DNA of 64,000 nt from Pseudomonadota bacterium (GTDB taxonomy: Bacteria; Chloroflexota; UBA5177; JAJPKF01), in NCBI GenBank assembly GCA_021323865.1, contig JAJPKF010000020.1, positions 186,001 to 250,000 on the forward strand. The letters run 5' to 3'. This document shows, one piece after another, positions 1-26,266 of this stretch (the stretch's first letter is position 1; each line of letters begins with the position of its first letter). The position numbers were made by a program, and so were the translations under genes. A model generated the notes under the pieces. The model made no database searches. It had not been told where the DNA came from and saw nothing but the letters and a program-made list of their open reading frames with translations.

Positions 1-30
1 GTTCAAGGCAAGCGCCCGGGAGAGGTATGA
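1..30 (+). CDS. C-terminal end of an upstream gene, probably an ECF sigma factor (partial)
   Basis: Frame 1 is open from the window edge and reads VQGKRPGEV before a TGA at 28-30. That stop overlaps the ATG of the anti-sigma gene (ATGA), the usual translational coupling of a sigma/anti-sigma pair. The sigma identity is inferred only from the partner; nine residues cannot show it. Confidence 0.4.
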   Translation, partial: VQGKRPGEV

Positions 31-584
31 GGCTTCTATTTCGGCATCCTGAGCAGCGGGAGCATGACGTGCTCACGCTATCTCAATTTGTCGACGGCGA
101 CCTCGACCCGGCGATGGCGCTAAGGGTCGAAGCGCACCTGGGGGATTGCGAGGACTGTCGGGGAACGGTCGCGGATTTTCAGTCCGTGAACCAGCGGGTG
201 ACGGAGGTCGGCTCGCGCGTGGTTCGGGTGCCGATGGAGGTTTCGGAGTCTGTGCGGCTCGACACCAGCCGCGGCCGGACCACCGGGCGAATTGGGATCG
301 TGGCCTCAGCTCGTTCCATGCCGGCGGCGGTGGGAACCGTGGCGGCCGCCGTGCTGCTCTTCATCGGCTCGGGATTTCTCCATCATGCTTCCGGCCCGAC
401 AACCCCTTCATCTCGTGCGTCCACGCCGGTCGTCAAACCGGCGAAGCGGTTCCTTCGGCAGAAGTTCCTTTCCATGGAGCACTCGGGGGCGGGACGGAAT
501 GTATCCCGCTCGGCTTCTGGCCCCAAGACCGGCAAGCCGACGCCTCCGCGACGCCAGGGACACACCCCCTTGATGCCTCTGTAG
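27..584 (+). CDS. Zinc-finger transmembrane anti-sigma factor
   Basis: A 185-residue protein. The N-terminal cytoplasmic part carries the ZAS-type zinc motif H37-x3-C41-x2-C44 (HLGDCEDC), preceded by the typical 'FVDGDL' helix that embraces a sigma factor. One hydrophobic segment at about residues 97-118 would anchor it in the membrane. It is followed by a Pro/Ser/Arg-rich outer tail with no recognisable sensor domain. The family holds an ECF sigma factor inactive until a signal releases it. The start overlaps the stop of the preceding frame, so the two are probably one operon. The sigma factor's target genes cannot be read from this window. Confidence 0.8.
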   Translation: MRLLFRHPEQREHDVLTLSQFVDGDLDPAMALRVEAHLGDCEDCRGTVADFQSVNQRVTEVGSRVVRVPMEVSESVRLDTSRGRTTGRIGIVASARSMPAAVGTVAAAVLLFIGSGFLHHASGPTTPSSRASTPVVKPAKRFLRQKFLSMEHSGAGRNVSRSASGPKTGKPTPPRRQGHTPLMPL

Positions 585-893
585 CTCGTCGCTCGTCGGT
601 CGCGACAGGGCCCACGCGACAGGCGTTCGGGCACCGTCTCCCGGTCATGAGGTAAAAGATATGGGACGGAATTTTGTGTGAATCGGCTCACACTGTTACG
701 CATCGCACTGTCTGTCCGTCTAGGTATATGTCAGGAGTTTTGCCTCCTGATTCGCAACAACAGCGATGCCACCGAGTACGAGATCAGGGAAATAGGAGGT
801 GCGCGGGGAGAAGCTGTGTCAAGTTCGTTCGCGCGAGCAGTAGCACTGTCGCAACCAAACTAGTCGATTTCAGAACTGTAGGAGAAACAACGC
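585..893 (+). other. Non-coding leader of the peptide transporter operon
   Basis: A stretch of 309 bases with no convincing gene. It holds an inverted repeat GTCGCG/CGCGAC (599-604 and 615-620), which could end the anti-sigma transcript, and a perfect CRP-type operator at 677-692. A TATATG hexamer (725-730) could be a -10 box with a poor -35, as expected for an activated promoter. A 7-bp hairpin TCAGGAG/CTCCTGA (731-750) follows. The binding-protein gene has a clear ribosome site (aggaga) about 8 bases before its ATG. Promoter assignment is inference. Confidence 0.5.
677..692. promoter_or_regulatory. CRP-type operator TGTGA-N6-TCACA, site 1
   Basis: The sequence TGTGAATCGGCTCACA matches both half-sites of the CRP consensus exactly, and the symmetry extends one more base (GTGTGA/TCACAC). 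It lies about 200 bases upstream of the peptide-binding protein gene. A Crp/Fnr-family protein encoded at 25400-26266 has the CRP-like helix 'RRESVTMAL'. Which regulator binds here is inference. Confidence 0.65.
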
Positions 894-2744
894 ATGAGCC
901 ATTTTTGGCGAAAGCCGTTGAACGTCGCGGCCACGCTGGCCGTCGTCCTGGGGATGGCGGGATTCAGCGCCGCCGCGGTGAGCGCTCACACGAGCGTGCA
1001 CCACAACGCTAAGGCGAGGGGCACGGTCATCTACTCGGACTATGAGTCCGCGAACACGCTGAACATCTTCCTGCCCAACGCCAACGGCGTGGCGGCAGCG
1101 GAGATCAACTCGAACACCGATCCGTTCGGGATCGAGCCGTTCTACAACAACAAGACCAAGCTCATCCCGGCGATGTTCACGAACATCCCCAACCCGACGA
1201 ACCACGGCAAGACCTACAACTTCCATCTGCGGAAGGGTATGCACTGGTCCGACGGCGCGCCCATCATTGGCCGCGACCTGCTGTTCGCGTGGCACGTCCT
1301 GATGAACCCCAAGACTGGCCCCTACTGCGCCGGCACCTGCGACGTGATCAAGAGCATCTCGCTGCACGGCAAGTACGGGATCACCTTCAAGCTCAAGAGC
1401 GTCTACTCGGTCTTCATCCAGCAGGCTCTGCCCTCCCTGTTCCCCTCCACCTTTAAGAAGGGCTGGAACAACATGGGAACGAAGGCGCAGATCGCCGCTT
1501 GCGTCAAGAAGATCTCCAACTGTGATGCCATCGGCACCAAGCTCATCAGCGACACGAGCTTCGACTACACAAACGACCACTACATCACGTCGGGCCCGTA
1601 TCAGATCACCAGCTTCTCGGACGCCGGTAACATCAACCGAGTGAGCTTCAAGCCCAACAAGCAGTGGCACAACTGGTATGTCGGCGCCAAGGCTGTTCGG
1701 CCCATCAAGACGCTGATCTTCCAGAGCTACGGCAGCCAGCCGGACATGATCGCGGCGGCCGCCTCCCACTCGACCGACGTCACCACCGACTACACGCTGG
1801 TGAATCTGCCTCAGCTGAAGGCGAACAAGGGCAAGTACAAGATCCAGACGTTCGGCAGCAATGACTTCGAGGCGCTGTTCTTTAATGACTTCAACAAGAT
1901 CATTAAGGGCGGCACCCATGGCATTCCTGCGAAGACCCGCAATCCCATCGATAACGCGAAGGTTCGATTGGCGCTCGGCCTCTCGTTCGATCGCGCTGCC
2001 CTCATCGCCAACGTGCTTAGTGTGAGCCACAAGGTGGCCTCGCGCTTCGTGTCCTACACCGTTCCGGTCATGAGCGCAAAGGCGCACCGCAGCTCCTATG
2101 CTGACCTGGCCATCCGCGGCGCGTGGGATCCCCTCAAGCACAAGTACGTGAAGCCAAACACCAAGGCTGCCCGCAAGGACGCCAAGAAGCTGCTGAAGCA
2201 GGCAGGCTTCGCAGGCGCCAAGGTCTACATCTCGACCAACTGCAGCAACCCGGCACGTCAGGCCTCGGTGACCTATCTCGCCTCCAGCAAGGCCTGGGGC
2301 GCGATCGGCGTCAAGGTCGTTCCCAACTGCGTGTCCGCGCAGGAGTTCTTCTTCACTGACCTCCTGTCGGGTGGTCACTACGAGGTCGCCATTCACGCGT
2401 ACACCAACCTGCCGGACTATCCGGACTGGGCGTACTTCCTGCTTGGTGGCCAGTTCTGCCCGCAGCTCTACAAGAACCCCAACGGCAACGATCAGAACGA
2501 CAGCTGCATCCGCAACAAGACGCTAGACCACGCCTATGTTGCCGCGCAGCACACGACCAGCTTCGGCAAGCGCCACAAGGCGTTCGACACCGCGCAGAGC
2601 GTCATCGCCAAGGAAGCCTACTGGATCGCTCTCTACGAGCGAGCCGGCATCCAGACGAACGACGGCAAGGTCAAGAACGTGACCGGTGACGCGAGCGTTG
2701 CCGGCGAGGCGAACTGGGATCCGTGGGTATGGAGCGCCGCGTAA
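894..2744 (+). CDS. Peptide ABC transporter substrate-binding protein (SBP_bac_5 family)
   Basis: A 616-residue extracytoplasmic receptor of the DppA/OppA class, the usual length for the family. It captures peptides or similar solutes and delivers them to the permeases encoded just downstream. An N-terminal Sec signal (residues 1-31, hydrophobic core AATLAVVLGMAGFSAAAV) has no lipobox cysteine, so the protein is probably secreted or held by the signal anchor. Family features include 'YNFHLRKGMHWSDGAPI', followed by the AWH helix, and the C-terminal 'YWIALYE' block. A good ribosome site precedes the ATG. A strong hairpin follows the gene, consistent with extra expression of the receptor over the membrane parts. 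Substrate is not determinable; peptide, nickel or sugar oligomers are all used by relatives. Confidence 0.9.
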   Translation: MSHFWRKPLNVAATLAVVLGMAGFSAAAVSAHTSVHHNAKARGTVIYSDYESANTLNIFLPNANGVAAAEINSNTDPFGIEPFYNNKTKLIPAMFTNIPNPTNHGKTYNFHLRKGMHWSDGAPIIGRDLLFAWHVLMNPKTGPYCAGTCDVIKSISLHGKYGITFKLKSVYSVFIQQALPSLFPSTFKKGWNNMGTKAQIAACVKKISNCDAIGTKLISDTSFDYTNDHYITSGPYQITSFSDAGNINRVSFKPNKQWHNWYVGAKAVRPIKTLIFQSYGSQPDMIAAAASHSTDVTTDYTLVNLPQLKANKGKYKIQTFGSNDFEALFFNDFNKIIKGGTHGIPAKTRNPIDNAKVRLALGLSFDRAALIANVLSVSHKVASRFVSYTVPVMSAKAHRSSYADLAIRGAWDPLKHKYVKPNTKAARKDAKKLLKQAGFAGAKVYISTNCSNPARQASVTYLASSKAWGAIGVKVVPNCVSAQEFFFTDLLSGGHYEVAIHAYTNLPDYPDWAYFLLGGQFCPQLYKNPNGNDQNDSCIRNKTLDHAYVAAQHTTSFGKRHKAFDTAQSVIAKEAYWIALYERAGIQTNDGKVKNVTGDASVAGEANWDPWVWSAA

Positions 2745-2784
2745 GCGTCGTACCCATAAGCCTCGGATAATCGTCGAGCCGAAC

Positions 2785-2817
2785 AAGAACCGGGAGGGAG
2801 TCGCCCTCCCGGTTCTT
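2785..2817 (+). terminator. Strong hairpin after the binding-protein gene
   Basis: A perfect 14-bp stem (AAGAACCGGGAGGG with CCCTCCCGGTTCTT) closes a 5-base loop 41 bases after the stop codon. There is no long T-run, so it may act as a partial terminator or as a 3' stabiliser of the receptor mRNA. Confidence 0.7.
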
Positions 2818-2901
2818 CGTCTCCAAAGAGTGTGCAGAAACCACGAGCCCAAGGTCATGGGCGGATCCCGAAATGCCCAGTGTGCGCCACAGCACTTCAA
2901 C

Positions 2902-2917
2902 TGTGAACTGGGTCACA
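2902..2917. promoter_or_regulatory. CRP-type operator TGTGA-N6-TCACA, site 2
   Basis: The sequence TGTGAACTGGGTCACA is a second exact match to both CRP half-sites, 44 bases before the start codon of the first permease gene and after the hairpin. A TATGAT hexamer (2918-2923) abuts it, which would put the site inside a core promoter (repression). A weaker GGTATT at 2936-2941 would instead place the site near -40 (class II activation). The sequence alone does not decide. Confidence 0.65.
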
Positions 2918-2960
2918 TATGATTTCAGTAGTGACGGTATTCCAGTAAGGGGGGCCCGAG

Positions 2961-3956
2961 TTGACTACCTACATCATTCGCCGGCTTATTCAGTCGACGA
3001 TCATCATGTTCGGGCTTTCAATCATCTTCTTCTTCATGCTTCACCTGGCGCCTGGTGGGCCTTGTGATGTCTTTATCCAGAGCCAGCGTCAGGTGATCCA
3101 ACACGAGCTCTGCGTCAAGACGCTGGGGCTTCATAAGCCGCTGCCCGTCCAGTACTGGTATTGGATCAGTGGGTACCTGCACGGCAATTTCGGCAAGACC
3201 ACAGGAGGCCAGCTGGTCAGCAGTACCATATTGGCTGCCCTTCCCGTTACCGTCCTGCTGGCCACTGTCAGCTACTTCTTCCAGCAGATCATCGCTCTGC
3301 CGCTGGGCATGTTCTCCGCGCTGCGCCAGTACTCGTTCTTCGATACGGTCTTCACCTTCATGTCGTACGTGGGGCTCTCGATGCCGACGTTCTGGCTCGG
3401 ACTGATGCTCATCTACCTCTTCGGCGTGCATTTCGCAGTCTTCCCCGTCGGATTGGTGACTGACACCCACCTGCCGGTTTTCTGGACGCATGATTGGTTC
3501 GTCGCGCTCGCGCACGATCCGCCACTCATCATTGGCGATCTAGCGCGGCATCTCGTGCTTCCGGCGATAACCCTGATGGTGGTGGGCGTGGCCGCGGATA
3601 GCCGCTTCATGCGGGCCTCCATGCTGGACGTGATCCATCAGGACTACATTCGCACCGCCAAGGCAAAGGGGCTCAAGCGGCGAACGGTGATCTTCAAGCA
3701 CGCCTTTCGGAATGCGGTGTTGCCCATCATCACCAACATCGCGCTCTATCTCCCCACCCTGGTGGGCGGGTTTGTGATCACGGAAGCGATCTTCAGCTAC
3801 GCCGGAGTGGGCAACCTGTTTGTGCAGTCGATAACGTCGCACGATTACGGGGTGGTGCAGGCGCTGCTCATGCTGAGCGCGATAGCGGTGCTTCTGGCCA
3901 ATCTGCTCGCCGATCTGACCTATGCCTGGGTCGACCCGCGCATTCGGTACGACTAG
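2961..3956 (+). CDS. dppB: Peptide ABC transporter permease, DppB type
   Basis: A 331-residue inner-membrane protein with six hydrophobic segments, starting at a TTG behind a purine-rich AAGGGGGG site. The N-terminal 'YIIRRLIQSTIIMFGLS' and 'HLAPGGP' match the DppB/OppB subgroup. The coupling (EAA) loop is intact: 'YIRTAKAKGLKRRTVIFKHAFRN', which docks on the ATPases. It forms the translocation pore with the next gene. A CRP-type operator lies just upstream, so it may head its own transcript as well as being read through from the binding-protein gene. Confidence 0.92.
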   Translation: MTTYIIRRLIQSTIIMFGLSIIFFFMLHLAPGGPCDVFIQSQRQVIQHELCVKTLGLHKPLPVQYWYWISGYLHGNFGKTTGGQLVSSTILAALPVTVLLATVSYFFQQIIALPLGMFSALRQYSFFDTVFTFMSYVGLSMPTFWLGLMLIYLFGVHFAVFPVGLVTDTHLPVFWTHDWFVALAHDPPLIIGDLARHLVLPAITLMVVGVAADSRFMRASMLDVIHQDYIRTAKAKGLKRRTVIFKHAFRNAVLPIITNIALYLPTLVGGFVITEAIFSYAGVGNLFVQSITSHDYGVVQALLMLSAIAVLLANLLADLTYAWVDPRIRYD

Positions 3957-3994
3957 GCGAAGGACCAGGAGCGGCGTGAGAGGGAAAGGGAATC

Positions 3995-4981
3995 ATGCAA
4001 GATCCTGAGCTTATGGAAACTGCGGTCCTATCTGATCAGGAGCCGACTCCGATTGCACCATCCGACTCTTCTCGGATGCTCATGGGGGCGGAGGATGACC
4101 AGCTGGGAATCCGGCAGCTCTCGCAGATGCAGCTCTTCTGGATCCGCTTTCGGCGGCACAAGGTAGCCCTCGTGGGCGCCGTGATCCTTGCCTTCTTCGT
4201 GGTTCTGGCCATTATCGGGCCCTATATCAGCCCGGAAACCTACGAAGGGTCCGGATGGAACCCGGTCGCTCTAAACTGGGCGCCGCAGTGGAGCTGGCAC
4301 TACCTCATGGGGACTGACGCGAACGGTCACTCCATCCTGATGTACGTCCTGCTTGGGGCGCGCACGTCTCTGGAGGTGGGCGTTCTTAGCGCGTTCGTCG
4401 CCACGCTCATTGGGATTCTGGTCGGCGCAGTTTCGGGCTATTTCGGGGGCTGGGTGGACGCGGTATGGATGCGCATCACTGACGTGTTCCTTACCTTGCC
4501 GTTTCTCCCGCTGGTCATCCTTGTCTCGGCCTATCTGGGCGGCGGCAACGCCTACATCATCGTGGCCATCTTCGGGTTCCTGGGCTGGTCGAGTGTCGCC
4601 CGGTTGATACGGAGTTACTATCTGACGCTCCGGGAGCAAGAGTTCGTGGACGCGGCTCGGGCGGTGGGCGTGTCGCATTCTCGGATCATGTTCCGGCACA
4701 TCTTGCCCAATGCCCTCAGCCCGGTGATCGTCTCGTTCACTCTGGCCGTCGCCGGGTTTATCGTTGGCGAGGCCGCCATCGACTTCCTCACGGTCGGAAT
4801 CAGGCCGCCGTCCGTCAGCTGGGGCATCGCCCTCGCGGGTGCCCAAAACAATCTGATCTTGGGGAACTGGTGGTGGGCATTCTTCCCCGGGGTCTGCCTG
4901 CTGCTCGTGGTTCTCGCCATCAACTTCCTGGGTGACGGCCTTCGGGATGCGCTAGACGTTCGCGCCAAGACATCCGAGTAG
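3995..4981 (+). CDS. dppC: Peptide ABC transporter permease, DppC type
   Basis: A 328-residue partner permease. A soluble N-terminal stretch of about 55 residues precedes the first membrane segment, as in DppC/OppC. The family block 'YLMGTDANGHSILMYVLLGAR' starts about residue 102, and the coupling loop 'EFVDAARAVGVSHSRIMFRHILPN' is complete. The gene follows dppB by 38 bases and precedes the ATPase genes in one direction, indicating an operon. Confidence 0.92.
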   Translation: MQDPELMETAVLSDQEPTPIAPSDSSRMLMGAEDDQLGIRQLSQMQLFWIRFRRHKVALVGAVILAFFVVLAIIGPYISPETYEGSGWNPVALNWAPQWSWHYLMGTDANGHSILMYVLLGARTSLEVGVLSAFVATLIGILVGAVSGYFGGWVDAVWMRITDVFLTLPFLPLVILVSAYLGGGNAYIIVAIFGFLGWSSVARLIRSYYLTLREQEFVDAARAVGVSHSRIMFRHILPNALSPVIVSFTLAVAGFIVGEAAIDFLTVGIRPPSVSWGIALAGAQNNLILGNWWWAFFPGVCLLLVVLAINFLGDGLRDALDVRAKTSE

Positions 4982-5035
4982 ACTTGCCCATGCACGGAGG
5001 GCTGTCCGCCGATTGTTGCCTGCCTAGGAGGCAGA

Positions 5036-6046
5036 TTGTCTACGGAGATTAGTCAGCACGAACTGATGCAGGAGACCCACAACGGACGTCTGCTTCGAGT
5101 CGAGGGCCTGCGAACCTACTTCAAGACGATGGACGGGATCGTCAAGGCTGTGGACGGCGTGTCCTTCGACATGCCGGAGGGATCCAGCCTGGGCATCGTC
5201 GGCGAATCCGGCTGCGGGAAGAGTGTTACTTCGCTTTCCATAATGCGGCTGGTCGAGCGGCCGGGATGGATTGCCGGTGGTCGCATCTGGTTTCATGACA
5301 AAGATTTGCTCCATCTGCCCGAGGAGCAGATGCGTCAGATTCGTGGCGACGACATCTCCATGGTTTTCCAGGAGCCGATGACGTCGCTGAACCCGGTCTA
5401 CACGCTGGGAGACCAGGTGGCCGAAGTGGTGCGGGTTCACCGAAAGGTCAGCCGCAAGGAGGCGATGAACCGGGCCATCGAGTTGTTCAAGCTGGTGGGC
5501 ATCCCATCGCCGGAACGGCGGATCAAGGATTACCCCCACAACATGAGTGGGGGTATGCGCCAGCGCGTCATGATCGCCATGGCTCTTGCCAACGACCCAG
5601 ACCTGTTGATCCTGGACGAGCCCACAACGGCCCTGGACGTCACGATTCAGGCACAGATTCTAGAGCTCGTGAAGGACCTGCAACAACGAGTCAATACGGC
5701 GGTCATGCTCATCACTCACGACCTCGGGGTCGTAACGGAGATGTCTGATCGCATCATCGTCATGTACGCGGGCCGGGTGGTCGAGGACGGCGACGTCCTC
5801 TCTGTGCTGAAGGACCCGCTGCATCCCTACACGAAGGGCCTGCTTGCCTCTATCCCTTCCCTCGGCAAGAAGAATCAGCGCCTAAACGTCATCGCCGGCG
5901 CCGTTCCCAATCCGCTGCGCATGCCGCAGGGCTGCAAGTTTGCGCCGCGCTGCCCCTATGTCATGGATGTGTGCCGAAATGAGGAGCCCGAGCTTCTGAC
6001 CCAGGGCGAACATGGGGAGCGGAAAGTCCGCTGTTGGTTGTACTGA
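5036..6046 (+). CDS. dppD: Peptide ABC transporter ATPase, DppD type
   Basis: A 336-residue ATP-binding subunit. Visible motifs are Walker A 'GESGCGKS', Q-loop '[12 protein letters not shown]', signature 'MSGGMRQRV', Walker B '[12 protein letters not shown]' and the switch His in 'LITHDLGVV'. A C-terminal oligopeptide-transporter tail has the clustered cysteines '[15 protein letters not shown]'. The start is a TTG with a near-perfect AGGAGG four bases upstream; no ATG fits as well. With DppF it forms the ATPase heterodimer that powers import. Confidence 0.92.
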
Positions 6047-6056
6047 TGAGAGCCGC

Positions 6057-7064
6057 ATGACAATCGAATCCGAAGCCATTCAGCAGCACTCGGACGCCAA
6101 CGGTAATCTTCTCCTGGACGTCCGTGACCTCAAGACGTACTACCCGATTCTGGGTGGAGTCCTCCGGCGTCGTGTGGGCTGGGTCAAGGCCGTTGACGGC
6201 GTGAGCTTCTCCATCAAGTCAGGCGAGACCCTGGGCATGGTGGGCGAGTCCGGATGCGGGAAGAGCACCATCGGCAGAACGGTGGTTCGCCTCGTCGACG
6301 CCACGGGCGGCAAGGTCATGTTCGAGGGGCGCGACATCCTGTCGCTCCGCGGGCAAGAGCTCAAACGTATGCGCCGCAACATGCAGATCATCTTCCAGGA
6401 CCCGTACGCGTCACTGAATCCGCGAATGCCGGTCGGCGACATCATCGGCGAGGGCTTGATGGTGCACGGGATGAAGAGTCGCAAAGAGCGCGAGGAACGC
6501 GTTCAGTACTACCTGGAGGTGGTGGGTCTTCGCAAGGAATACGTCCGCCGGTATCCGCATGAATTCAGCGGCGGCCAGCGACAGCGAATCGGAATCGCGC
6601 GAGCCCTTGCCCTGCGTCCAAAGCTGGTCGTGTGTGATGAGCCGGTGTCGGCCCTTGACGTGTCGATTCAGTCTCAGGTGCTCAATCTGCTCAGCGATCT
6701 GCAGAAGGAGTTCGGGCTCACCTATCTATTCATCGCCCATGACCTGAGCGTCGTCGAATACATCAGCGATCGGGTCGTGGTCATGTATCTGGGCAAGGTT
6801 GCGGAGGTGGCCGACTCGGAGCGCCTCTACGCCAATCCGAAGCACCCGTACACACAGGCTCTCCTTTCGGCCATTCCCATCCCGGACCCGACGGTTAAGA
6901 AGCAGAGGATCGTGCTCCATGGAGATGTTCCGAGCCCTATCAATCCGCCCAGCGGCTGCCGGTTTCGGACTCGCTGCTGGCTCGCACAGAGTATCTGTGC
7001 CGAGCAGGAGCCGCAGCTACGGCAGGTCGAATCGGGGCATTGGGCCGCATGCCACTTTGCGTGA
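6057..7064 (+). CDS. dppF: Peptide ABC transporter ATPase, DppF type
   Basis: A 335-residue second ATPase subunit. Walker A '[12 protein letters not shown]', Q-loop '[16 protein letters not shown]', signature '[12 protein letters not shown]', Walker B '[12 protein letters not shown]' and switch 'FIAHDLSVV' are all intact, with the C-terminal tail '[15 protein letters not shown]'. The extended '[18 protein letters not shown]' is typical of the DppF side. The ATG at 6057 starts just after the dppD stop; an in-frame ATG inside dppD (6012) would add non-homologous residues and is rejected. Confidence 0.92.
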
Positions 7065-7076
7065 CGATCTAGAGCC

Positions 7077-8738
7077 ATGCGTGCGCTACTCCGTCGGGTT
7101 GGCAGGGTACTCGGACGCATCGCCGTAGTCTGGCTGCCGATTCTGGCGGTCTTCCTCGGCGTCGGATTTGTGGTCGAAGTGACTCATGCCCGGACGACGT
7201 ACTCGCAGCGGTTCTCTGCCCCCACGAACGACGGACAGAGCTCGGGGGCGACGGGGTATTCAGCCGTTCCCGATGGACAAGGTTGGCAGCTCTTCAGCCC
7301 GGATCTGCACGGCAATCTGGTACTGCGGCGCATTGGATCGACCGGGCGGACGCTCTGGCAGCGAGTTGTTGGTCAGTCTGCCAGCAACCTGAGCTGGCCG
7401 GCAATGGCCTGGGGAGCCGGATCCGATCTGGGCGCCTGGGTCAACAATCCCGGTGGATCGACCCAGACCCTGGAGATCGCAGCTGTAACTCCCAATCACG
7501 TCTACCGGAGAGCCCTGACCACCTCCGGTTTCGCCGAGCACCCGTTTGTCGTTGCCAACCCGCGACGGCATCAGTTCGACGTGTTCTTCGGGTGGCAGCC
7601 GGCCAAATCGAACTTCGACATCTACGCGGCACGCCTTTCGTCGACCGGAAGACTGTTGGGGCGCTTGGTCCGACTCTCCAACGCCGTAATCTACGACTAC
7701 TATCCGCGAGCGACTTGGAACGGACATCAACTGACGCTCCTCTACCTCAATCAGTGCTGCCGAAGCAACTATCTCCACGTGGTTTACCAGCGGCTCTCGT
7801 GGACGCTAAGGCCACTGGGTGCGCCTCGGTTCCTCGACCTGCTTGCGACATCCAGTGCGGCTCCGGATGAGTGGGGTCTCGACGTCCGAACAGGGCCCGG
7901 TGGATCGGTCTGGGCGACCTGGATCAACAGCTCTGCGCTGAAGCTGGCTCGGTGGTCAGCGGCCGGAAAGCTGTCTTTCGTGAGAACCATCCTGGTCGCG
8001 AACGGGTTCGACCAATCGAATCTTGCCGTGAGCCTGGGCCTGAATCACAACGAGGGCTGGTTGTACTACGCGACCGGGGGCGCCGTGGGCTTCTACCTCG
8101 CGTCGACCCGCTTCAATAGGCAGGGATTTCCCGTGGCCTCCTATCGCGTCAGCTATGGGACGCTGGGGTCTGACATGAATCCGGTAACTGGGGTGTCTGC
8201 GGGCCGCTCCCGGGTCATCTGGGAAGAAGGCACGGGCGGCTCGGCCGTCTTCCAGTCGAGTACCGACCGAGGTCATGTGGCCGCAAGCGGCATTCAGAAC
8301 CTGGGTCTGGGATTGGGAAGCCCTCTCGTCGACCTGACCATTCTGCTAATCGGATCGCTGCTGGCGGGCGCAGTGCTCACGATGATCAACGGCTTCATCC
8401 TGCTGCCGCTGCTATTCGCCTGGCTGCCCATCGGTAAGCTGCTTCCCGACCGCTTCAATTGGATCGTCTATGGCGGTGTCGTCGCGGCCGTTCTGAGCCT
8501 CCTATTTGCCACCAGGACGTTCGCCAGTAATTGGATGCTTCTTGTGAGGCCGTTGAGCCAGCCATCGAGCGCGCTCGCCGTGGGGGGAGCGGTATTTGTG
8601 GGCTACTGGGTCAATCGAGTGGGTATGCGGGAACAGGAGCCGGTTTTCCGGGCGGCCGCTCTGGCACTCACGGCGTTCTACTTCATCGCCGCAATGTGGG
8701 CCATCGGTGGCATCGAGAACCGGCTGACCCTGATCTAG
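7077..8738 (+). CDS. Membrane protein of unknown function with large outer domain
   Basis: A 553-residue protein 12 bases after dppF, so probably co-transcribed. One hydrophobic segment (about residues 11-30) is followed by about 380 residues rich in beta-type sequence, aromatic residues and Gly/Ser ('DGQGWQLFSPDLHGNLVLRR', 'DIYAARLSSTGRLLGRLV'). This part resembles beta-propeller-like secreted domains. Four to five hydrophobic segments follow from about residue 410 to the end. I do not recognise a catalytic motif or a named family. The position suggests a role tied to the transporter or cell surface, but this is inference. Confidence 0.75.
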   Translation: MRALLRRVGRVLGRIAVVWLPILAVFLGVGFVVEVTHARTTYSQRFSAPTNDGQSSGATGYSAVPDGQGWQLFSPDLHGNLVLRRIGSTGRTLWQRVVGQSASNLSWPAMAWGAGSDLGAWVNNPGGSTQTLEIAAVTPNHVYRRALTTSGFAEHPFVVANPRRHQFDVFFGWQPAKSNFDIYAARLSSTGRLLGRLVRLSNAVIYDYYPRATWNGHQLTLLYLNQCCRSNYLHVVYQRLSWTLRPLGAPRFLDLLATSSAAPDEWGLDVRTGPGGSVWATWINSSALKLARWSAAGKLSFVRTILVANGFDQSNLAVSLGLNHNEGWLYYATGGAVGFYLASTRFNRQGFPVASYRVSYGTLGSDMNPVTGVSAGRSRVIWEEGTGGSAVFQSSTDRGHVAASGIQNLGLGLGSPLVDLTILLIGSLLAGAVLTMINGFILLPLLFAWLPIGKLLPDRFNWIVYGGVVAAVLSLLFATRTFASNWMLLVRPLSQPSSALAVGGAVFVGYWVNRVGMREQEPVFRAAALALTAFYFIAAMWAIGGIENRLTLI

Positions 8739-8761
8739 CCTTTCCGTCTATTCGGCGGCGT

Positions 8762-9322
8762 CTAGGCGAACTTGGGGATCCGGAAGGTCTTCAGCAACTT
8801 GGCGAACTGGGCGATCTCCGCCTTGGACATGTTCGGATAGTTGGGGAAGTTCAACTCCCAACCATAGAGCCGCGAATTGATATCCGCGTCCTCCTCTACG
8901 ATTCGCGAGCCATTGGTCTGACGCACAAAAACTGCAGGCAATCCGGAGACGTGGATCCGAAAGAACGTGCAGACAAACGGGCATGTTGCCGTCCTGCTGA
9001 TCACCTTGCCGTTTGGCACCTTGTTCAGCAGCGGAATAGGGGCATGAACCACGACCCGGAATCCGGGCGGCTTCACAAAGTGCAGGATGTAGGTATTGGC
9101 CGGCGTCGTCGTGAACGTACCGCCGTGAGGAGGCGGAGTCCAGGATGAGGGGTACCGGAAGGAGAAGTGAAGCTTCCGGTCGACGTACCGTCGCGTGGCC
9201 GAGTCCGATCCGCAGGCGGCCACGCTCAGCAGAAGCGGTGCCAAGAGAGCCAGCAGGATGGCCCTGGGTCCCAGACCAAGGTGCCGGGGCGTGCCGCTCA
9301 TGTGGTGGATTTTAGCACCCAC
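8762..9322 (-). CDS. Predicted lipoprotein, function unknown
   Basis: A 186-residue protein with a type II signal: basic n-region, hydrophobic 'AILLALLAPLLL' and lipobox 'SVAACGS'. It would be lipid-anchored on the outer face. The mature part starts 'YVDRKLHFSFRYPSSW', a pattern found in PsbP-like or stress-response lipoproteins with a surfactant-like fold; no active site is evident. A shorter start at 9301 (ATG) also keeps the complete signal, and neither start has a strong ribosome site. It converges on the preceding membrane protein gene. Confidence 0.65.
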   Translation of the reverse strand: MGAKIHHMSGTPRHLGLGPRAILLALLAPLLLSVAACGSDSATRRYVDRKLHFSFRYPSSWTPPPHGGTFTTTPANTYILHFVKPPGFRVVVHAPIPLLNKVPNGKVISRTATCPFVCTFFRIHVSGLPAVFVRQTNGSRIVEEDADINSRLYGWELNFPNYPNMSKAEIAQFAKLLKTFRIPKFA

Positions 9323-25399: not shown

Positions 25400-26266
25400 A
25401 TGGGGATTGCCATCGGCGCCGAGTACCGAGCCTCATTACTGGGGACGATTCCACCCTTTCGCTCCTCGCTCCGTGATCTCCTCGAGACGGCGGGCGGCAG
25501 GATCCGGTGCCGCCGATACGACCGTGGGGAACGAGTCTACAGCGAGTTTGACGAGCCAACCGAGGTGTTCGCGCTCCAGGCCGGGCGGATACGGACATTG
25601 CGCATCACTCCCCAGGGTAAGGACGTGACGCTCTTTCTCGTCGAGCCGGGTCAGCTGTTCGGAGTCGACGCAATCGCCCATGCGGCTGGAGATGCACCGC
25701 CGTGGGGGCACGATGCGGAGGCACTGGATCAAGACACGGTCGTCGTGTCTGTCCCCCGACAGGATTTTGGGCTGGTGGCTGCTCGCCATCCCGAGCTCAT
25801 GAGCCATGTGGTCCGATCACTTTGGATGCAGACACAGGACCTCATGGATCAGGCGGAGACGCGGGCCTTTCATGATGTCCGGGGCAGGCTCGCCAACGCC
25901 ATCCTCATGCTGGGACACAAGGAGGGAGTTGCAACCTCACGTGGTTTGGTCATCTCACCGGCAATGACGCATGAGCAGCTTGCGGCGCTTGCAGGAACGC
26001 GTCGCGAGAGCGTGACGATGGCCCTCGGGAGCTGGCGACGCGAGGGGATTATCGCCAGTGATGAGAACGAACGCTCGATCGTGATTCTCGACGTGGAGGC
26101 GCTCGCTCAGTATCGTGAAGGCGGTACGTCCGCAAGGGTCATTGTCGATTCGATTCTGGCGCGGCTCACCGCCGTTCAGAGACAGAATCGGGAGACTCGG
26201 ATCGCAGAGGTGGAGCTGGTGCGGGAGCGCCGCCGCGCCACGTATCAGAGCTATAGCCGGCGGTAA
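25400..26266 (+). CDS. Crp/Fnr-family transcription regulator
   Basis: A 288-residue regulator. The N-terminal cyclic-nucleotide-binding-type beta barrel (about residues 25-135: 'GERVYSEFDEPTEVFALQAGRIRTLRITPQGKDVTL' in sequence blocks) is followed by a dimer helix and a winged helix. The recognition segment 'GTRRESVTMALGSWRREGII' aligns with 'GCSRETVGRIL' of CRP, so the Arg-Glu pair that reads TGTGA is conserved. No cysteine cluster for an Fe-S centre is seen. About 60 extra residues follow the winged helix. The ATG at 25400 has a GGGAGGAG site; the upstream TTG does not. It may bind the two operators near the peptide transporter genes. Confidence 0.88.
   Translation: MGIAIGAEYRASLLGTIPPFRSSLRDLLETAGGRIRCRRYDRGERVYSEFDEPTEVFALQAGRIRTLRITPQGKDVTLFLVEPGQLFGVDAIAHAAGDAPPWGHDAEALDQDTVVVSVPRQDFGLVAARHPELMSHVVRSLWMQTQDLMDQAETRAFHDVRGRLANAILMLGHKEGVATSRGLVISPAMTHEQLAALAGTRRESVTMALGSWRREGIIASDENERSIVILDVEALAQYREGGTSARVIVDSILARLTAVQRQNRETRIAEVELVRERRRATYQSYSRR

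Follow-up and report, generated by a model that had tools for sequence, protein, structure and literature searches.

Two predicted CRP-type operators ahead of the receptor and permease genes of a peptide importer in an uncultured bacterium

Two palindromes of the pattern TGTGA-N6-TCACA precede transport genes in a 64-kb stretch of DNA (the window) from the draft genome of an uncultured bacterium. They raise the question of whether one regulator controls the receptor of a peptide importer and its membrane subunits separately. An earlier note had proposed this and had named a Crp-family protein encoded in the window as the regulator. On sequence grounds, we put at about 0.64 the probability that a global CRP-type regulator, most likely a Crp protein encoded on contig C30 (C30 Crp), acts at both transporter promoters.

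Two palindromes in the gaps of a transporter locus

Both palindromes were found, exact, where the earlier note had placed them. Predicted CRP-type operator 1 (TGTGAATCGGCTCACA, 677–692) is a pattern match and one of the seven intergenic exact sites of the genome; its arms gain one further pair, reading GTGTGA...TCACAC over positions 676–693. Predicted CRP-type operator 2 (TGTGAACTGGGTCACA, 2902–2917) is likewise a pattern match that belongs to the genome-wide set, and neither site is assigned a strand. The window contains no third exact copy. Dinucleotide shuffles of the window yielded a mean of 0.04 exact matches and none of 100 shuffles reached two, in line with the earlier judgement that such a pair is unlikely by chance. 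At up to one mismatch the window holds 3 sites against 1.33 expected, whereas at up to two mismatches it holds 14 against 20 expected, which is no excess. As the surplus is gone once mismatches are allowed, the information appears to be carried only by near-perfect copies.

The non-coding placement before transport genes was also borne out. Site 1 lies in a 309-base gap, 92 bp past an anti-sigma-like open reading frame (27–584) and 201 bp ahead of a plus-strand gene (894–2744) for a secreted family-5 peptide/solute-binding protein of 616 aa (SBP_bac_5, E 2e-42). Site 2 lies in a 216-base gap, 157 bp past this gene and 43 bp ahead of an oppB-type permease gene (2961–3956, plus strand; domain match and alignment to a relative), whose TTG start is supported because the ATG start of the relative aligns there. 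An oppC-type permease (3995–4981), an oppD-type ATPase (5036–6046) and an oppF/dppF-type ATPase (6057–7064) follow on the same strand, each identified by a domain match. At the borders of the locus, the product of 27–584 is a putative anti-sigma factor (zf-HC2) and a 553-aa protein without a Pfam match is encoded past oppF (7077–8738).

The strong hairpin said to separate the two sites is a perfect 14-bp stem on the plus strand at 2785–2817, 3′ of the binding-protein gene, with a 5-base loop and no clean T-run after the stem. It is a probable terminator or mRNA 3′-end stabiliser of the binding-protein transcript. A small hairpin also lies on the plus strand (731–750) within the 200 bases that precede the binding-protein gene, with the 7-bp stem TCAGGAG-TTTTGC-CTCCTGA, but the folding of the whole 200-base leader is no better than that of shuffles. 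No Rfam element was found in positions 1–9000 of the window.

A genome-wide set of CRP-type sites

A scan of the genome, which the earlier note had suggested as a check, showed enrichment of the motif upstream of genes. The 2.96-Mb draft contains 8 exact TGTGA-N6-TCACA sites compared with 1 match to the reversed-pattern control, and 39 compared with 16 when up to one mismatch is allowed. Genes were called around all 39 sites with a home-made codon-usage model trained on the host genome, and the non-coding share of ~11% (89% coding) was taken from ~180 kb sampled around the sites, not from annotation. Against this background, seven of the eight exact sites (binomial 1.3e-6) and 13 of the 31 one-mismatch sites (binomial 9.4e-6) lie between genes and precede at least one of them.

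Two further properties of the set, neither of which was used in picking the sites, concern the flanking DNA. In the shoulders, 2–5 positions beyond the palindrome, AT content is 58% around intergenic sites and 34% around coding matches (P 1.5e-5); the excess at the intergenic sites ends at position 6. With a graded -10 score, -10-like hexamers occur 20–23 bases downstream in 6 of 31 gene-facing flanks compared with 1.1 expected (P 0.0003, or 0.013 allowing any window) and in none of the coding matches. This spacing would place the site centre at ~-41.5, the position of a class II activator. Counted alone around the sites, TANNNT was not significant (P 0.07), so the class II signal is in part a matter of how -10 elements were scored. 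Taken together, enrichment, intergenic placement, AT-rich shoulders and class II -10 spacing suggest that a global CRP-type regulator very probably uses the set as its operators. With 20 intergenic candidates and a class II signature, the set outlines, at the level of motifs, a CRP-type regulon of an uncultured lineage.

The candidate targets include MFS exporters, ABC transporters, tandem GNAT acetyltransferases, a solute-binding protein, a MoxR ATPase gene that faces a sigma factor gene, a UvrA-like gene and a zinc-binding dehydrogenase. CRP-type sites, exact and one-mismatch, lie upstream of two tandem-GNAT genes (L169:7374-8372, minus strand, and L155:1613-2572, plus strand), and a third GNAT gene (L167:844-1485) also has such a site upstream. 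Two transporters of the multidrug-exporter type within the MFS (L171:7331-8860 and L148:1-1434) each combine the upstream site with a -10-like element spaced as for class II activation. On contig C25, two putative secreted proteins without a Pfam or NCBIfam match (L154:97-1227 and L155:294-1451) share a similar N-terminal region; their genes are several kb apart, and each is divergent from a neighbouring gene with a CRP-type site in between.

The set resembles that of E. coli CRP-cAMP in its TGTGA-N6-TCACA pattern, AT-rich shoulders and class II spacing. GlxR of C. glutamicum, which is mostly an activator, has the consensus TGTGANNTANNTCACA (PMC4254451). The operator arms are the same here, and the targets similarly span transport, metabolism and regulators; the present set differs in its lineage, in the small number of exact sites (8) and in that none of the eight has the TA found at the centre of the GlxR consensus. 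Because this TA is absent, the sites are filed as CRP-type and not as GlxR sites.

Promoter geometry and the choice of regulator

The two window sites do not show class I or class II spacing, as their best predicted promoters place them at -52.5 and -20.5. This counts against the promoter model and not against binding. For the binding-protein gene, the best but weak -10-like hexamer is TATATG on the plus strand (725–730), which would place site 1 at -52.5 and has a promoter score no better than shuffles (P 0.93). The small hairpin at 731–750 directly follows this hexamer and may be a leader hairpin. Before oppB, the best promoter-like element (2896–2923, plus strand) consists of TTCAAC (2896–2901), a 16-base spacer and TATGAT (2918–2923), and the spacer is exactly site 2, which would be centred at -20.5.

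With site 2 occupying the whole spacer of the best oppB promoter, activation at this gene is no more likely than repression. In one variant, compatible with the reading of a global CRP-type regulator at both promoters, site 2 would be a repressor operator that blocks RNA polymerase in the TTCAAC–TATGAT spacer, while site 1 would activate or be idle. The exact fit of the site into the highest-scoring element of the gap (score 10.0) speaks for this variant, but that score is marginal against shuffles (P 0.07), the TTCAAC hexamer has only three of six -35 matches, and the genome-wide set indicates class II activation. In addition, TATTCC at 2938–2943, as read from the sequence, would place site 2 at about -40.5, near class II, although with a very short leader: a class II start at about 2950 would leave ~10 bases before oppB. 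We therefore hold the repressor variant to be tentative, short of even odds. For the sign of regulation, the site set favours activation and the local geometry at oppB favours repression.

The genome encodes two proteins that combine a cyclic-nucleotide domain with a strong Crp helix-turn-helix, and a third in which only the nucleotide domain is present. One of the two is the Crp-family protein of the window (25400–26266, plus strand), which profile and PDB matches describe as LdrP/NtcA-like with a degenerate nucleotide pocket. Its recognition helix, RRESVTMAL, does contain the Arg-Glu pair attributed to it, followed by Thr-Met where CRP and GlxR have Asn-Lys. A cAMP pocket or phosphate-binding cassette (GE...RS/T) was absent from the corresponding region (GQLFGVDAIAHAAGDAPPWGHDAEAL). 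LdrP is the nearest named family (NCBIfam E 2e-15), and in the PDB the protein matched NtcA first (E about 5e-14) as well as the Thermus-type Crp proteins 5i2d and 3b02.

The other protein, C30 Crp (G000:C30:239957-240637), has a cNMP domain and a Crp helix-turn-helix and matches CRP/GlxR over its full length. Of the proteins with solved structures, it is closest to M. tuberculosis CRP and C. glutamicum GlxR (E 1e-43 to 1e-41). The best PDB match is M. tuberculosis CRP (Rv3676; PDB 3d0s, 3i54 and 3mzh; residues 5–226), a likeness at the protein level, and the GlxR structures 4byy, 4cyd and 3r6s are among the nearest, with a shared RES/T..NK helix and PRT pocket. Judged by its sequence, C30 Crp retains the pocket (GEISIF..PRTGTV) and the R-E-x-x-N-K helix TRESINKTL, which resembles SRETVNKAL in M. 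tuberculosis CRP. The host genome also encodes two class III cyclase domains, which make a cyclic-nucleotide signal plausible. The system differs from that of E. coli, in which Cya is a class I cyclase, and C30 Crp is closer to actinobacterial CRPs than to the E. coli protein. In view of the full-length match, the kept pocket and the TRESINKTL helix, we assign the sites to C30 Crp, which probably reads both of those in the window. No site with up to two mismatches was found near the C30 crp gene, which gives no sign of autoregulation. The GlxR-like crp gene directly follows a gene for a cyclic-nucleotide-domain protein without a Crp helix-turn-helix match (G000:C30:239957-241030), a two-gene sensor arrangement.

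The earlier choice of the window protein as the reader of both sites, controlling receptor and permease separately, is thus displaced by a better candidate and appears unlikely. Its gene is on the same contig, 23 kb from the sites, its recognition helix includes Arg-Arg-Glu-Ser, and its LdrP likeness and Thermus-type matches recall TTHB099, a CRP-family protein of Thermus that binds the 16-bp palindrome TGT(A/g)N...ACA regardless of cAMP, with a preference for TGTA over TGTGA (PMC7662524). Against these points, the window protein has neither the nucleotide pocket nor the Asn-Lys of the CRP/GlxR helix, its Thr-Met also differs from the Ser-Lys of its Thermus matches, its best PDB scores are far weaker, and the same genome encodes a more canonical TGTGA reader in C30 Crp.

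Relatives, remaining alternatives and control of the transporter

Among the named genomes scanned, a single syntenic locus was found (genome G001, contig L025), in which OppB is 66% and the binding protein 35% identical to those of the host; other OppB relatives in the scan were ordinary, at 43% identity or less. Neither orthologous gap of this one distant syntenic relative contains a site at up to two mismatches. The earlier note had taken loss of the sites in close relatives that keep the genes as evidence against its proposal. G001 does keep the genes without the sites, but, although placed in the host's order, it belongs to another family and is not a close relative. The gap after its binding-protein gene contains a 14-bp hairpin at the same place as in the host, with a different sequence. 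As the structure is kept and the bases are not, the hairpin is most likely a terminator or 3′-end cap that keeps the permease transcript apart from an abundant transcript for the receptor. A TAAAAT-like element also lies before oppB in this relative, and together with the hairpin it makes a separate permease promoter plausible.

Order-level relatives that share the recognition helix of C30 Crp contain, together with one class-level genome, 8 exact sites compared with 2 controls, a weak enrichment. Five of these eight lie between genes, whereas each of the 10 one-mismatch sites that were looked at falls in coding sequence. In 60 relatives from the phylum, some of which may use other regulators, the exact motif occurs 145 times compared with 29 for the control. 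Enrichment in relatives and absence at the syntenic locus suggest that the type of regulator is shared, and that CRP-type control of this transporter may be specific to this lineage. Elsewhere in the phylum, two genomes each have three exact TGTGA-N6-TCACA sites within 6 kb (L175:2239-7643 and L176:2977-8364). The cluster on L175 (genome G010) adjoins a run of three crp-type genes and may be a separate regulon; the sites of both clusters were set aside, as their regulators are possibly of another kind. A literature search for CRP with an oligopeptide transporter, or for cyclic AMP receptor protein with Chloroflexota, found no such regulon.

The syntenic locus without a site, the missing excess at up to two mismatches in the window, and the expectation that eight randomly placed sites would include two this close in about 4% of genomes are the points in favour of chance palindromes without a regulatory role. 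The 0.04 exact matches expected in the window make this distinctly improbable, as do the properties of the site set: its enrichment, its position between genes, its AT-rich shoulders and its -10 spacing. That the palindromes are RNA or DNA hairpins (terminator-like elements) and not protein sites is highly improbable: both are perfect dyads, but with arms of 5–6 bp, 6-base loops and no T-run, their arm sequence is conserved across genes as expected for protein sites and not for hairpins, and a much stronger 14-bp hairpin already lies between the binding-protein gene and oppB.

The favoured explanation is that a global CRP-type regulator, sensing cAMP or another cyclic nucleotide, would bind as a dimer at 677–692 to act at the binding-protein promoter, and that a second dimer at 2902–2917 would act on a separate promoter of oppBCDF, with the hairpin at 2785–2817 ending or capping the binding-protein transcript. 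Such a regulator would be mostly a class II activator genome-wide, with repression at oppB as a local counterpart at least as likely as activation. From the earlier proposal, the arrangement of CRP-type sites before two separately transcribable parts stands and it is plausible that receptor and permease are controlled independently, whereas the named regulator is replaced: correcting the most likely reader to C30 Crp is one outcome of this analysis. It is quite unlikely that one CRP-type regulator acts with opposite signs, activating the binding protein and repressing the permease/ATPase operon from the promoter spacer; if it did, the receptor-to-channel ratio would be set by the cyclic-nucleotide level. 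More generally, a single global signal could tune the stoichiometry of a peptide importer, provided that its receptor and permease are switched independently. Apart from this separate switching, the locus reflects ordinary CRP biology and is a sound case of global regulation in an uncultured organism.
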